Under the pieces are notes generated by a model. That model was not told the origin of the DNA and searched no databases. It saw only the letters and a list, made by a program, of their open reading frames with translations. DNA of 26,117 bases from a virus. Below, in pieces: positions 3,000 through 22,403 of this stretch. Where the stretch lies: IMG/VR virus record IMGVR_UViG_3300028553_000143, positions 1-26,117 of that record; one strand, 5' to 3'. How positions within the stretch are numbered: position 1 is the stretch's first letter; each line of letters begins with the position of its first letter. The position numbers were made by a program, and so were the translations under genes.

Positions 3000-3326
3000 A
3001 TGACCACATGCAAAAAATGCGGCAGGGAATACGCGTACGCCAGAAGTCGCGGGCACAGAGTAACAATGTGCAACTCGTGTTTCACTAAAGCAAAAAATCT
3101 AAGGATTAAAGGTAAAGCTGTCGAGTACAAAGGAGGAAAATGTAAATATTGCAACTATGATAAATGCTTAGCTGCACTGCATTTCCACCACAGGGATCCG
3201 GATAAGAAGGACTTCGGAATAGGTACTGGATTCAATCGAGCCTGGGCTAAGGTTACTGACGAGCTAGACAAATGTGATTTGGTGTGTGCAAATTGCCACG
3301 CCGAAATACACGCGGGGTTGTTGTAA
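3000..3326 (+). CDS. HNH endonuclease inserted at a tRNA gene
   Basis: The protein has 108 residues: an N-terminal zinc knuckle (Cys4, Cys7, Cys24, Cys27), then the HNH core with Cys48/Cys51, the catalytic HFHH at 61-64 and VCANCHAEIH at 95-104. It is a shorter relative of the 144-residue HNH upstream. The last four codons (Ala-Gly-Leu-Leu) and the stop are also the first 15 bases of tRNA-Val, so the reading frame supplies the present 5' end of the tRNA. An orphan tRNA 5' half lies just upstream. A TAAATA -10-like box (2988-2993) ends six bases before the ATG, suggesting leaderless transcription. Identity is firm; homing into the tRNA is inferred. Confidence 0.88.
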   Translation: MTTCKKCGREYAYARSRGHRVTMCNSCFTKAKNLRIKGKAVEYKGGKCKYCNYDKCLAALHFHHRDPDKKDFGIGTGFNRAWAKVTDELDKCDLVCANCHAEIHAGLL

Positions 3327-3413: not shown

Positions 3414-3441
3414 TTGTGATTTTCTATCTACCGTGTATATT
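3414..3441 (+). promoter_or_regulatory. Promoter-like element of HNH gene 3449
   Basis: TTGTGA (3414-3419) and TATATT (3436-3441) are 16 bases apart; the -10 ends seven bases before the ATG at 3449. The 10-mer TCTACCGTGT (3427-3436) also occurs at 2974-2983, in front of the HNH gene at 3000. Confidence 0.5.
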
Positions 3442-3448
3442 CGTAGTT

Positions 3449-3988
3449 ATGTTAACGAAAAATGTACACAGAAACTGTAAGCGCTGTTCTAAATCCTTCT
3501 TAACCACCGCCAGAGATGTGGCCCGTGGTTGGGGGCTATACTGCTCTGCTGCTTGTGTCCGAGAGGACATAGCAGCCCGTCGTAAAAAAGAAACAGCTGA
3601 AAGAAAAGAACGGATGGGTAGTAACGTAAAGTGCGCAGCTTGCGCAAAAGCACTATACCGCTCACCGCGTAGGTTGAAGCTATCTAAAAGCGGCTTATAC
3701 TTTTGCTCTAATACCTGTAGGGCTAGTGCGCAGCACGTAGGTGGCCCCTTGGAGTTTTTACCCGAGCACTACGGGACCCTTGGGGAAGAAGGCTACAGCC
3801 GCTATAGAGCTAAGGCGTTTAAACATAAAGCAAGCTGCTGTGAGTTATGTAGTTATGATAAATTCCCCAAATTGCTAGAAGTGCACCATAAAGATAAAAA
3901 TAGGCGTAACTCCGACTTAAATAACCTGCAAATACTGTGCCGCAACTGTCATGCGGAGCAGCATATGCTACTCTGCCCACCAACTTAA
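3449..3988 (+). CDS. HNH endonuclease with two zinc ribbons
   Basis: The protein has 179 residues from the ATG at 3449. I prefer this start to an in-frame ATG at 3416, because a TATATT -10 box lies between the two. Two four-cysteine knuckles (Cys10, Cys13, Cys32, Cys36; Cys62, Cys65, Cys86, Cys90) are separated by a very basic helix. The HNH core follows: Cys131/Cys134, the catalytic EVHH at 144-147, NN at 158-159, and LCRNCHAEQH to 172. It is the longest of the HNH enzymes here. It follows tRNA-Val and ends three bases before the next gene, so it may be co-transcribed with the small-protein operon. The family call is firm; target specificity is unknown. Confidence 0.87.
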   Translation: MLTKNVHRNCKRCSKSFLTTARDVARGWGLYCSAACVREDIAARRKKETAERKERMGSNVKCAACAKALYRSPRRLKLSKSGLYFCSNTCRASAQHVGGPLEFLPEHYGTLGEEGYSRYRAKAFKHKASCCELCSYDKFPKLLEVHHKDKNRRNSDLNNLQILCRNCHAEQHMLLCPPT

Positions 3989-3991
3989 ACA

Positions 3992-4192
3992 ATGAAAATA
4001 ATCGAAACAAATGCACGCGATGACGGAGCTGTTGTCTACGTGGAAGCTATATGTGAAAATGTGGATGGAAAACTTATGCAAGTCAGCACATGCAAGTTCA
4101 GCTACAAGACCAAAGATGAAAAGCAACGAGCTTTAAAGCTGGCACACGCCGACATCGAATACTTTTTAACGAACGACAATGAAAAAACTTAA
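3992..4192 (+). CDS. Small hypothetical protein
   Basis: This 66-residue acidic protein is not recognised. It appears to have a beta-rich first half (VVYVEAICENVDGKLMQVSTCKF) and a helical second half (DEKQRALKLAHADIEYFL). The start is three bases after the HNH stop and is preceded by AACTTAAACA, without a Shine-Dalgarno sequence. Its last 14 bases overlap the start of the prepilin-like gene, so the two are probably translationally coupled. Confidence 0.6.
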   Translation: MKIIETNARDDGAVVYVEAICENVDGKLMQVSTCKFSYKTKDEKQRALKLAHADIEYFLTNDNEKT

Positions 4193-4394
4193 ACACAAAG
4201 CATTTAGTCTCCTCGAGCTGCTCGTGGTGATATCTGTAATCGCAATCATAGTTTCAATAGCTATACCTAATATAGTAGACGTGACCAAGAAGAAGCATAC
4301 GCGCTATTACGCTAACCCCATGGGTGCTCCTGTACCTGTGGAAACGAATACACCGCAGCGCTTCTGCCCCTACTGCGGGCATTCTCTGCCCTAG
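4179..4394 (+). CDS. Prepilin-like small membrane protein with Cys-pair tail
   Basis: The 71-residue product begins like a type IV prepilin or pseudopilin. A short basic leader of eight residues is followed by FSLLELLVVI, with Phe9 at the mature +1 position, Glu13 at +5, and a hydrophobic helix to about residue 32. Prepilin peptidase normally cuts after Gly; here the -1 residue is Ala8, which is less usual. The exposed part is only about 40 residues, far shorter than a pilin head, and ends in FCPYCGHSLP, half of a zinc ribbon. A phage gene like this could enter and poison the host pilus or type II secretion machinery, or could be chance similarity of a membrane anchor. It overlaps the previous gene by 14 bases. 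Confidence 0.7.
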   Translation: MKKLKHKAFSLLELLVVISVIAIIVSIAIPNIVDVTKKKHTRYYANPMGAPVPVETNTPQRFCPYCGHSLP

Positions 4395-4400
4395 TGTTAT

Positions 4401-4706
4401 ATGGGACTTGGATACTGTAACCCAGAGATAGAGAGCATCTTGCGCAATGCAAGAAAGGCGTACAGGCAGCTCGATGAAATAACCCAGGAGTTAAGAGACA
4501 AGGCCAATGCACTTGACGAAGTTCAGATGAAACTCTCTAAGGACGCCGTCGCCCATTGCAGAGCGCATGGCCTTCTAGAAATTGATGAGACCGCTGCGGA
4601 GTACGTTGTGGACGATTGGTATGGTGACGCCGACATGGAGTACATGTTCAAGGAGCACCATCCCAGACCACCTAAAGCACCAAAGAAAAAGAAACAACCA
4701 AAATGA
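4401..4706 (+). CDS. Hypothetical coiled-coil protein
   Basis: The 101-residue protein has a predicted helix or coiled coil at about residues 7-50 (ARKAYRQLDEITQELRDKANAL), an acidic middle (VVDDWYGDADMEY) and a Lys/Pro-rich tail (PKAPKKKKQPK). I do not recognise it. It begins six bases after the prepilin-like gene and its stop overlaps the next start in an ATGA, so it belongs to the same translationally coupled operon. Confidence 0.65.
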   Translation: MGLGYCNPEIESILRNARKAYRQLDEITQELRDKANALDEVQMKLSKDAVAHCRAHGLLEIDETAAEYVVDDWYGDADMEYMFKEHHPRPPKAPKKKKQPK

Positions 4707-4918
4707 AACTAACAGACAGCCAAAGAAAAGCAGTTAAGGAAGCAAGCGCAAAGATTGCTGAGCTTTCCGCCAAGCAAGACTTCATCTACCATGCATTACT
4801 CAACGTAGTACAGGTGGAGGAGGGACGTGAAGAGAACCTGATATTTGATCTGGTTTACAACACAGACGAGGAGGAGCTTGATGAGACAATCACCAGATAC
4901 GAGCAGTACACTGCTTAA
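4703..4918 (+). CDS. Small hypothetical helical protein
   Basis: This 71-residue, mostly helical protein has a basic first third and an acidic C-terminal region (NTDEEELDETITRYEQ). It is not recognised. The start is coupled to the previous stop through ATGA. Its 3' end overlaps the following gene by about 38 bases if that gene starts at 4881. Confidence 0.6.
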   Translation: MKLTDSQRKAVKEASAKIAELSAKQDFIYHALLNVVQVEEGREENLIFDLVYNTDEEELDETITRYEQYTA

Positions 4919-20322: not shown

Positions 20323-20634
20323 TTACTTCAGAGGGTCTTCTACCTTATCGTCCTCTTCGCCAGCATAATACTCAATATCTTTGGCTTTATACTCGGCGTC
20401 TGTCTCATTACTTGCCGCCTTGAACACAGCACGTACAGAGTCATCATAAACACGGTCAACCATCAATAGCTGACTAGTGCCCGACTCACCCAGGAAGATA
20501 CCCTGCCTGGGTTTTGTGAGAGAATACTCCACACAGGTCCATTGGTTCTCTGGTGTGCCCAGCATACGCAGGGCTGCCACTCTTTCCTTTGGAATAGCCT
20601 TACCGCTAACTACACATAGATGCTTTTTACTCAT
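20323..20634 (-). CDS. Small protein with a degenerate DksA/TraR-like motif
   Basis: In this 103-residue protein, residues 7-22 (CVVSGKAIPKERVAAL) resemble the zinc-finger segment of DksA/TraR proteins (CxxCGxxIPxxRxxAL). However, the second Cys is replaced by Ser, and only one further Cys (34) follows instead of a CxxC pair. The C-terminal part is acidic. The ATG overlaps the portal stop (TAATG). It may be a structural small protein that has reused the fold; a transcription role would need the coiled-coil tip of DksA, which is absent. Confidence 0.55.
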   Translation of the reverse strand: MSKKHLCVVSGKAIPKERVAALRMLGTPENQWTCVEYSLTKPRQGIFLGESGTSQLLMVDRVYDDSVRAVFKAASNETDAEYKAKDIEYYAGEEDDKVEDPLK

Positions 20635-22403
20635 TACTGTTGAGGAGGTTGTCCGCCTTGCTGCCCTTGCTGCTTGGCTTGCTGTACGCCTTGGGATTTA
20701 GATTGCGACGTCATCTGGTCGAGCTGTGACTTAACCTGAGCGTACAATCCCTGATCCTGGGCTTTGAGTTGTTGCAGCTGCTGTCTGCGTTGTGCTCCGT
20801 CTAGCGGAAACAGCTGCTGTGCAATCTGCTGGGCCTGTGCAAGAGCATCCTGCGGAGTCATAGGAGCTCCACCCTGCCCTTGTTGTCCACCCTGTTGCTG
20901 CCCGAGTAGATTATAGATGTCTGCATCTGTCTGCTGGGCGATCATGTCCTTCTCCTGCTCTTCTTTCTGCACATCAGCAGTAACACGATCTTCCTCCATC
21001 TTTTTGCGCACCTGATCTTCGTAGTCGAAGTTGTATAGCTTGAGCAGTTCGGATCTTGCGATAGCATTAGCCGATACAAGCTGGCCAACAACGGACTTGC
21101 GCTCCATGTCGTCGGAGAATGTAATAGGAATGAGAGATATCTGTGCCTCAGCAAGGCCAAGTATCTTACCAATCACCGTACCTAGGTGGTTGAGTAGCTT
21201 GTTATAGTTAGCGGGAATGACAGACCAGGCATTCTCGAACATACGAAGCATAGGACCAGCAGCTTGTTGCTGAAAGGACATCTGAAACATCTCCACCGGA
21301 ATATCCAATGCATTTAAGATGTTGTTTTGCAGACGTTCCATAAGCTCTACAGGCGCCAGCTTCGTACCCTCACCACCAAGCTGTTGATACTCAACAGGAA
21401 ATGGGAATTTATGATAAGAACCTGGGTCTCTGCGGTGCTCTTCGATCATCTGGTCTACGGAAGCCGCCCACAAGCCACCATTCTGGTGTAGAATAGGGTT
21501 AGCCGCGGAGTTGGCTTCCTTGGCCATAGAGATAACACGGAAAGGAGCAATGTCTTCGAAGCATATTACCTCATTGTAGCGCTTCAAGGTCTGTAGCATG
21601 AACAAATCTTCGAACAGGAACATGCATGGAGGCACTGCCTTACCATCAGTACGAATAGTATTAGGTGTGTCGAGCGTAAGATGCAGAAAGTTCTTCGGGT
21701 TGAAGGCCAACATATGCTTCTTCTCGATGCAATCGAACACAACCTGTGGTGTTTTCTTGCTATAGAACTTGTTGTTCTTCGTTGTAATCTTCTTGATGTA
21801 GGTCTGCGGTATGTCCCAGAAGTATTCACTCTCTCCGGTCATGTCCTCGTGCCTAATCTTGATCTCTTTAGCTGGCCAGTGCACTACATGGACCTTCTCC
21901 ATATCGTTCGAGGACTTATCCTCGCACTTGTGGTTGCCACGATAGCCGCATTGCTGGCAAGTCATCTTATACTTACCACTTTGGAACTCAAAGTCGTCCA
22001 GTTTGTCAATAGCGTGCACTCTAGCACACTCCGGGCACGTCAAATAGCGTGTAAACCCCTGGTTTACAGTGATAAACTCGTTACCATAGGCCAATACGTT
22101 GAGCCCAGCCTTGGCTAGAATATGTTTCCAGCCTATCTGGTCAAGTGCCTTGGTATATTTCTCCTTCGCCTCGCTATCATCGCACTCAATAGTGAGAGAT
22201 GTGATGAAATAGTTAGCAATACGGTTCAGCGCTTGCTTGTAGAAGCCATTGCGGAACAAAAAGTGCTCCGCCCAGAGCATCATTCCATCAATATTCTGAG
22301 GAAGATACTGTAAAGGTATGTTATAGAACGGGTTGGAGTACCTATCCTTAGCATTTTGCCCGAAATTGAAGAAGTTGCCCGGACCGTTGGGATCTAAAGC
22401 CAT
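20634..22403 (-). CDS. Portal protein with zinc-ribbon insertion
   Basis: The 589-residue protein has the length and layout of a phage portal. The N-terminal wing has YKQALNRIANYFITSLTIEC and NVLAYGNEFITVN; the later stem/clip and helix region includes LQNNILNALDIPVEMFQMSF and AAGPMLRMFENAWSVIPANYNKLL. A Gln-rich, probably disordered tail occupies about 500-589. Cys123, Cys126, Cys149 and Cys152 form a zinc ribbon inserted in the wing, which many portals lack. It would form the dodecameric DNA gate at the capsid vertex. It is one of the few genes here with a strong Shine-Dalgarno sequence (GGAGGA), located within the end of the 52-residue gene upstream. No terminase or capsid gene is in the window. 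Confidence 0.85.
   Translation of the reverse strand: MALDPNGPGNFFNFGQNAKDRYSNPFYNIPLQYLPQNIDGMMLWAEHFLFRNGFYKQALNRIANYFITSLTIECDDSEAKEKYTKALDQIGWKHILAKAGLNVLAYGNEFITVNQGFTRYLTCPECARVHAIDKLDDFEFQSGKYKMTCQQCGYRGNHKCEDKSSNDMEKVHVVHWPAKEIKIRHEDMTGESEYFWDIPQTYIKKITTKNNKFYSKKTPQVVFDCIEKKHMLAFNPKNFLHLTLDTPNTIRTDGKAVPPCMFLFEDLFMLQTLKRYNEVICFEDIAPFRVISMAKEANSAANPILHQNGGLWAASVDQMIEEHRRDPGSYHKFPFPVEYQQLGGEGTKLAPVELMERLQNNILNALDIPVEMFQMSFQQQAAGPMLRMFENAWSVIPANYNKLLNHLGTVIGKILGLAEAQISLIPITFSDDMERKSVVGQLVSANAIARSELLKLYNFDYEDQVRKKMEEDRVTADVQKEEQEKDMIAQQTDADIYNLLGQQQGGQQGQGGAPMTPQDALAQAQQIAQQLFPLDGAQRRQQLQQLKAQDQGLYAQVKSQLDQMTSQSKSQGVQQAKQQGQQGGQPPQQ

Follow-up and report, generated by a model that had tools for sequence, protein, structure and literature searches.

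Aqs1 of phage DMS3 and Tip of phage D3112 are phage proteins that bind the assembly ATPase PilB and shut off type IV pili, and PfsE, a small inner-membrane protein of the Pseudomonas Pf phages, binds PilC and blocks type IV pili (PMC8764522); pilin mimicry is not described in that work. Our search of the open-access literature found no functional work on headless prepilins or pilin mimics of phages. Here we describe a 71-residue phage protein that shares with PilA, GspG and ComGC the leader, the cleavage site, Phe at +1, Glu at +5 and the hydrophobic helix, but differs from them in being headless, orphan-tailed and phage-encoded; it is not a complete pilin. Like PfsE, it would be a small single-helix inner-membrane phage protein. 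However, PfsE has 30 residues and comes from filamentous temperate phages, no class III signal has been described for it, and its active motif YxWGW is absent from the protein studied here, whose sequence holds no Trp; the two have no sequence kinship.

The window, i.e., the whole stretch of DNA analysed, is a 26,117-base record of an uncultured virus with six tRNAs. Its portal gene shows distant likeness to the portals of 180-187 kb Vibrio and Salmonella phages, and its other genes include an RNA ligase/tail-fibre attachment gene, an AAA ATPase and several HNH endonucleases. The structural block, from portal to tail genes, occupies approximately 9.3-23.2 kb on the minus strand, and the prepilin gene lies in an accessory block rich in tRNA and HNH genes, within a series that faces the structural genes and is transcribed in the opposite direction. 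Small HNH-type ORFs stand among the tRNA genes at 26-388 and 3416-3988, both with HNH profile matches, and at 1695-2129 and 3000-3326, which are HNH-type by eye only. In the portal protein (20634-22403, minus strand), four cysteines (C123, C126, C149 and C152) are invariant across three distant relatives and look like an inserted zinc-binding finger.

The ORF of interest runs from ATG to TAG at 4179..4394 on the plus strand, stop codon included, and its translation is MKKLKHKAFSLLELLVVISVIAIIVSIAIPNIVDVTKKKHTRYYANPMGAPVPVETNTPQRFCPYCGHSLP. It belongs to a tight same-strand series of small genes: upstream, a 66-residue ORF (3992..4192, plus strand) overlaps it by 14 nt, and downstream, after a 6-nt gap, follow two small ORFs of 101 and 71 residues (4401..4918, plus strand) with a mutual overlap of 4 nt. 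Family profile searches gave no match for the 66-residue ORF and no convincing match for the downstream pair. The frame of the prepilin ORF has the best codon score of the six, though weakly (0.08 bits/codon); because of this score and the tight same-strand series, it is probably a real gene. No Shine-Dalgarno motif precedes it, as is true of nearly all window genes (the motif is present in 2 of 31), which suggests a host group poor in such motifs.

The preliminary description had read in this protein a class III (prepilin) signal with Phe +1, Glu +5 and a following helix, and had proposed a prepilin profile as a check. Both curated profiles recognise the protein: PF07963 (N_methyl) gives 28.5 bits against a cut-off of 21.2 (E 1e-6) and TIGR02532 gives 28.4 bits against 16.3. 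The protein begins MKKLKHKA|FSLLE, with a short basic leader of eight residues (4179..4202), for which alignment with 20 other class III sites predicts a prepilin-peptidase cut after Ala8, so that A8 is -1, F9 is +1 and E13 (codon 4215-4217) is +5. The hydrophobic helix, residues 9-30 (4203..4268), contains a hydrophobic stretch of approximately 22 residues with a Kyte-Doolittle mean of up to 3.03 over 19 residues (11-29). Basic residues on both flanks of the helix (KKLKHK and KKKHTR) leave the predicted membrane topology ambiguous. We also built a custom profile from 20 other prepilins, leaving the window protein out, against which it scored 33.8 bits. When residues 9-31 were shuffled 20,000 times with their hydrophobic composition kept, the highest score was 15.4 bits, with none near 33.8, and no other ORF in six frames of the window and 35 related phage loci (582 kb) exceeded 18.4 bits. 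Over the records of the 35 portal relatives (2.37 Mb), PF07963 gave one match above cut-off, itself a convincing prepilin. Because the profile scores lie far above those of shuffles and other ORFs, chance is not a reasonable reading of the signal, and the claim that a phage encodes a prepilin-like protein is supported.

Ala at -1 had been flagged as a caution. One paper describes prepilin peptidase as cleaving at Gly or Ala (PMC3244431), and in 92 distinct class III sites from IMG/VR viral contigs, collected with a pattern taken from the helix of the window protein itself with the -1 position left free, this residue is Gly in 60, Ala in 30 and Arg in 2. A second set, whose pattern permitted only Gly or Ala, held 41 and 25, respectively. 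The caution is thereby weakened by the 30 Ala sites and that description, but not removed, as a review holds that Gly at -1 is invariable outside the archaea and critical (PMC4471445).

Beyond the hydrophobic stretch only 41 residues remain, and neither this length nor the AlphaFold2 model leaves a globular C-terminal pilin head on the helix. Predicted from the single sequence (mean pLDDT 64), the model contains a helix at residues 11-41 and no further domain with confidence, in agreement with the earlier picture of a 71-residue protein with almost no head and a CPYC tail. The tail (4269..4391) ends in FCPYCGHSLP, with CPYC at residues 63-66 (codons 4365-4376). It has the look of half a zinc ribbon, with a match to PF13240 below cut-off (E 0.007), yet a zinc ribbon has two CxxC knuckles, and this tail has one CPYC and scores 16.5 bits against a cut-off of 25. 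No relatives of this tail were found, either by full-length searches of viral contigs and phages or with tail patterns. A combined pattern of the N-terminus and CPxC returned one locus, L122, rejected since its CPxC lies in another frame, and the pattern MG.PV...CP.CG returned six loci, none of which encodes a similar protein. Nor could the C..G..C mini-head shared by several other stubs be aligned with the window tail.

Full-length searches with the window protein gave no match in viral contigs and none in phages, probably in part through low-complexity masking of the helix. A search started from L162, a relative with a less repetitive sequence, gave access to the phage set: prepilin-type genes appeared in 122 annotated phage records with this relative and in 228 with a consensus, the weakest of which are chance matches. 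Headless or nearly headless prepilins of 28-107 residues are present in unrelated large phages, including KVP40-like and T4-like Vibrio and Aeromonas phages, P. aeruginosa nankokuviruses, Delftia phage PhiW-14, Acinetobacter phage Acibel004, Synechococcus phage BUCT-ZZ01 and a phage distantly related to the window phage by its portal. The carriers of the short prepilins listed next fall in Straboviridae of two host groups, Demerecviridae, Nankokuvirus, Ionavirus, Saclayvirus and Kyanoviridae. The short prepilins comprise Aeh1p044 (28 aa), PX29 gp038 (31 aa), that of AhP_Mru1 (37 aa), PhiW-14 gp119 (44 aa), G1 orf026 of a Pseudomonas phage (59 aa), nt-1 ORF295 and that of F86 (61 aa each), ValKK3 gp231 of a Vibrio phage (67 aa), Aes508 gp085 of an Aeromonas phage (75 aa), and those of BUCT-ZZ01 (83 aa) and Acibel004 (107 aa). 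A PF07963 rescan of short phage prepilins placed 10 of 10 above cut-off. The shortest (28-37 aa) are practically the helix alone, with nearly no tail. Every stub read retains the class III positions; the preliminary description had named homologues lacking Glu +5 as evidence against its reading, and none was found, +5 always being Glu. Between one pair of Aeromonas orthologs, few substitutions were counted.

These stubs fill at least three PHROGs of "unknown function", with full-length matches of the ValKK3, Aes508 and G1 proteins to phrog_13280, phrog_11263 and phrog_10597, respectively. Like the members of these families, the window protein has an N-terminal class III signal, a length within their range (59-75 aa), no head, and a place in a non-structural gene block of a large lytic-type phage. 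It differs in matching over its first 28-34 residues only (25-29 profile positions), failing whole-profile membership in all three, and in its FCPYCGHSLP tail and Ala at -1. In T4-like phages the stub genes lie among nrdB/nrdD, td and tk/rI, away from virion genes, with syntenic copies beside td in ValKK3, F86 and nt-1. The pilin resemblance was already known to annotators of Aeh1 ("similar to N-terminal part of pilin") and PX29 ("similar to N-terminal part of fimbrial protein"), and ValKK3 ORF231 has been likened to PilE, with a guessed role in attachment (PMC13142089). The design is thus not peculiar to the window phage, and its recurrence in many unrelated phages whose hosts are piliated or secrete by type II lends support to the notion of a pilin mimic in general. 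Among such recurrent but uncharacterised phage proteins, the window protein is a variant with an orphan tail.

Several observations accompany these families. In Aeromonas phages, both T4-like and Demerecviridae, a lipoprotein-annotated gene stands at or near the stub, as it does in an unrelated contig of uncultured origin (L175 1006-1929, L178 803-1726, L182 506-1429, L190 172-1032 and L048 244-1104); it is SPFH/band-7-like in Aes508 and SPFH-like by eye in L048, and it is possible that it forms a functional pair with the headless prepilin. Three short prepilins, of a 350-kb uncultured contig (L223 4995-5237), of the distant relative G031 (L162 1495-1731) and of BUCT-ZZ01 (L179 1995-2243), have in common a small tail with a Cys..Gly...Cys arrangement, perhaps a miniature head closed by a disulphide. 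Synechococcus phages S-CAM7 and ACG-2014f, Vibrio phage 033B and P. aeruginosa phage F10 encode pilin-like proteins of greater length. In the temperate P. aeruginosa phages F10 (L177 2995-3627) and Ostro (L180 1995-2636), the gene for such a protein, of 210-213 residues, lies between those for the major tail protein and the tape measure protein, a location that would allow a component of the virion or tail. Records of Acinetobacter phage MD-2021a were left out, as their pilW, fimT, xcpT and ppdD-like genes look like bacterial chromosome; these pieces of 220-255 kb (CAKLQF020000004-5 and CAKLQH020000002-5) are filed as phage. Most long IMG/VR prepilins (290-390 aa) were not used for the stub class because their viral origin is unverified. 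Such long proteins (L002-L121, approximately 290-390 aa) resemble those of Planctomycetes, Lentisphaerae and Verrucomicrobia, and come either from viruses of these bacterial groups or from misfiled host DNA.

Within the lineage of the window phage, the RNA ligase as query found no related contigs, and portal alignment found 35, which divide into close relatives (L127-L130, 73% identity) and distant ones (21-28%). The close relatives share with the window the lysis genes, the portal-adjacent gene and an exonuclease-like gene. A PF07963 scan of their sequence (4.9-25 kb each) found no class III protein, and one of them, G004 (L130/L168), has the stretch from the lysis genes to the tRNA cluster, equivalent to window 3.4-9.3 kb, without a prepilin gene in it. 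Since the closest relatives lack a class III match in the sequence examined, the gene appears dispensable. The distant relative G031, with a related portal (approximately 25% identity), does carry a prepilin (L162:1495-1731), a headless protein of 79 residues which, like that of the window, is a short class III protein in a tRNA-rich region; the two are 48% identical over 29 residues. It differs in its C..G..C tail, against CPYC in the window, and in having no standard start codon: no ATG, GTG or TTG precedes the signal, and there is an ATA after a GAGGAGG motif, which means that the start codon is unusual or the sequence contains an error. Absence from the close relatives and presence in G031 argue for an accessory gene gained or lost in a variable region. 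Sites resembling KAFSLLELLVVIS occur only five times in 84,980 genomes, in Bacteroidetes, Gracilibacteria, Shapirobacteria, Pedosphaera and one unnamed bacterium; being so scattered, they permit no inference of the host.

The reading we prefer, tentatively, is that the protein may be an early host-takeover membrane peptide that copies the assembly helix and jams pilus or pseudopilus assembly in the host. Such a peptide would copy only those parts of a pilin that the assembly machine handles, namely the leader, the cleavage site and the assembly helix. It would insert in the inner membrane N-in/C-out, would probably be cut by the host prepilin peptidase, and would then compete with the pilins or pseudopilins of the host, whether at the peptidase (PilD), at the platform protein (PilC/GspF) or at the growing fibre. 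Assembly of type IV pili, competence pili or the type II pseudopilus would fail, and the phage could benefit by excluding other phages or DNA, or by keeping its progeny off a dying host. Preservation of the class III positions in all stubs read, and the reduction of the shortest to almost the helix alone, favour a decoy over a plain anchor. Glu5 is dispensable for cleavage and needed for homopolymer assembly (PMC4471445), and its retention points to assembly, beyond membrane insertion alone. PfsE offers, by analogy, a working precedent for a tiny phage membrane protein that stops pili. The 228 matching records, which are non-independent samples, come mostly from Aeromonas, Synechococcus, Pseudomonas, Vibrio and Acinetobacter phages, and Escherichia is outside their ten commonest names, yet for a different gene of this collection it ranks first; this host spread agrees with the decoy model, as supporting and not conclusive evidence. 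Against the model stand the window tail, unlike those of other stubs, the ambiguous topology, the lack of a class III match in the examined sequence of the closest relatives, and the scarcity of Shine-Dalgarno motifs, which would be compatible with a host that has no type IV pili.

Alternatively, the class III helix could be a mere membrane anchor, with the short CPYC tail as the working part, for instance a CxxC stub with a redox or metal-binding role in the periplasm or, if the helix is inverted, a cytoplasmic zinc knuckle. CPYC is the classic glutaredoxin active-site motif, Cys recurs in the tails of several other phage stubs, and the likeness of the tail end to half a zinc ribbon, below cut-off as it is, points the same way. 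Yet there is only a single knuckle, a plain anchor has no need of Phe +1, Glu +5 or a match to the N_methyl profile, and in the practically tailless relatives of 28-37 residues the helix must be the active part; we consider this explanation unlikely.

The protein might instead join host filaments as an extra minor pilin or pseudopilin that modifies them (capping, brittle pili or altered retraction) without abolishing assembly. A class III signal with Glu +5 would suit this role, and headless pilins are able to assemble in other systems, type IVb prepilins of Caulobacter being as short as 44 residues (PMC4471445). But no partner gene in the window would supply a head, the +6 residue is Leu14, whereas Flp (type IVb Tad) pilins have Tyr +6 after Glu +5, and no phage stub is known to occur in a pilus, which makes this role rather improbable. 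A fragment of a host pilin could also have recombined into a variable gene block rich in HNH genes and tRNAs, to be carried there without selected function; the orphan tail fits such an origin, as does absence from the examined sequence of the closest relatives, including the syntenic interval of G004. It is hard to square with an intact ORF that keeps all class III positions, with a design kept across several phage lineages as the three PHROG families, and with the syntenic copies by td, and we hold it to be distinctly doubtful. That the segment is a chance hydrophobic run, or the ORF not a gene, is exceedingly improbable, for although the codon signal is weak and no full-length homologue is detectable, 33.8 bits compares with at most 15.4 in the composition-keeping shuffles and 18.4 elsewhere.

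Extended to the other phages, the decoy reading becomes a proposal that we offer with still more reserve: headless prepilins may be widespread, repeatedly evolved phage decoys that poison host pilin processing and assembly, of which the window protein would be the CPYC-tailed version. If this is true, type IV pili, competence pili or type II secretion would be shut down during infection. A pilin-helix decoy would act on a different principle from the binding of PilB by Aqs1 and Tip or of PilC by PfsE, and a decoy consisting of the helix only would be a simple tool against pilus or pseudopilus assembly. The same design is filed as "hypothetical protein" in KVP40, 44RR2.8t, Aeh1 and KPP10, which opens the idea to work in laboratory hosts.
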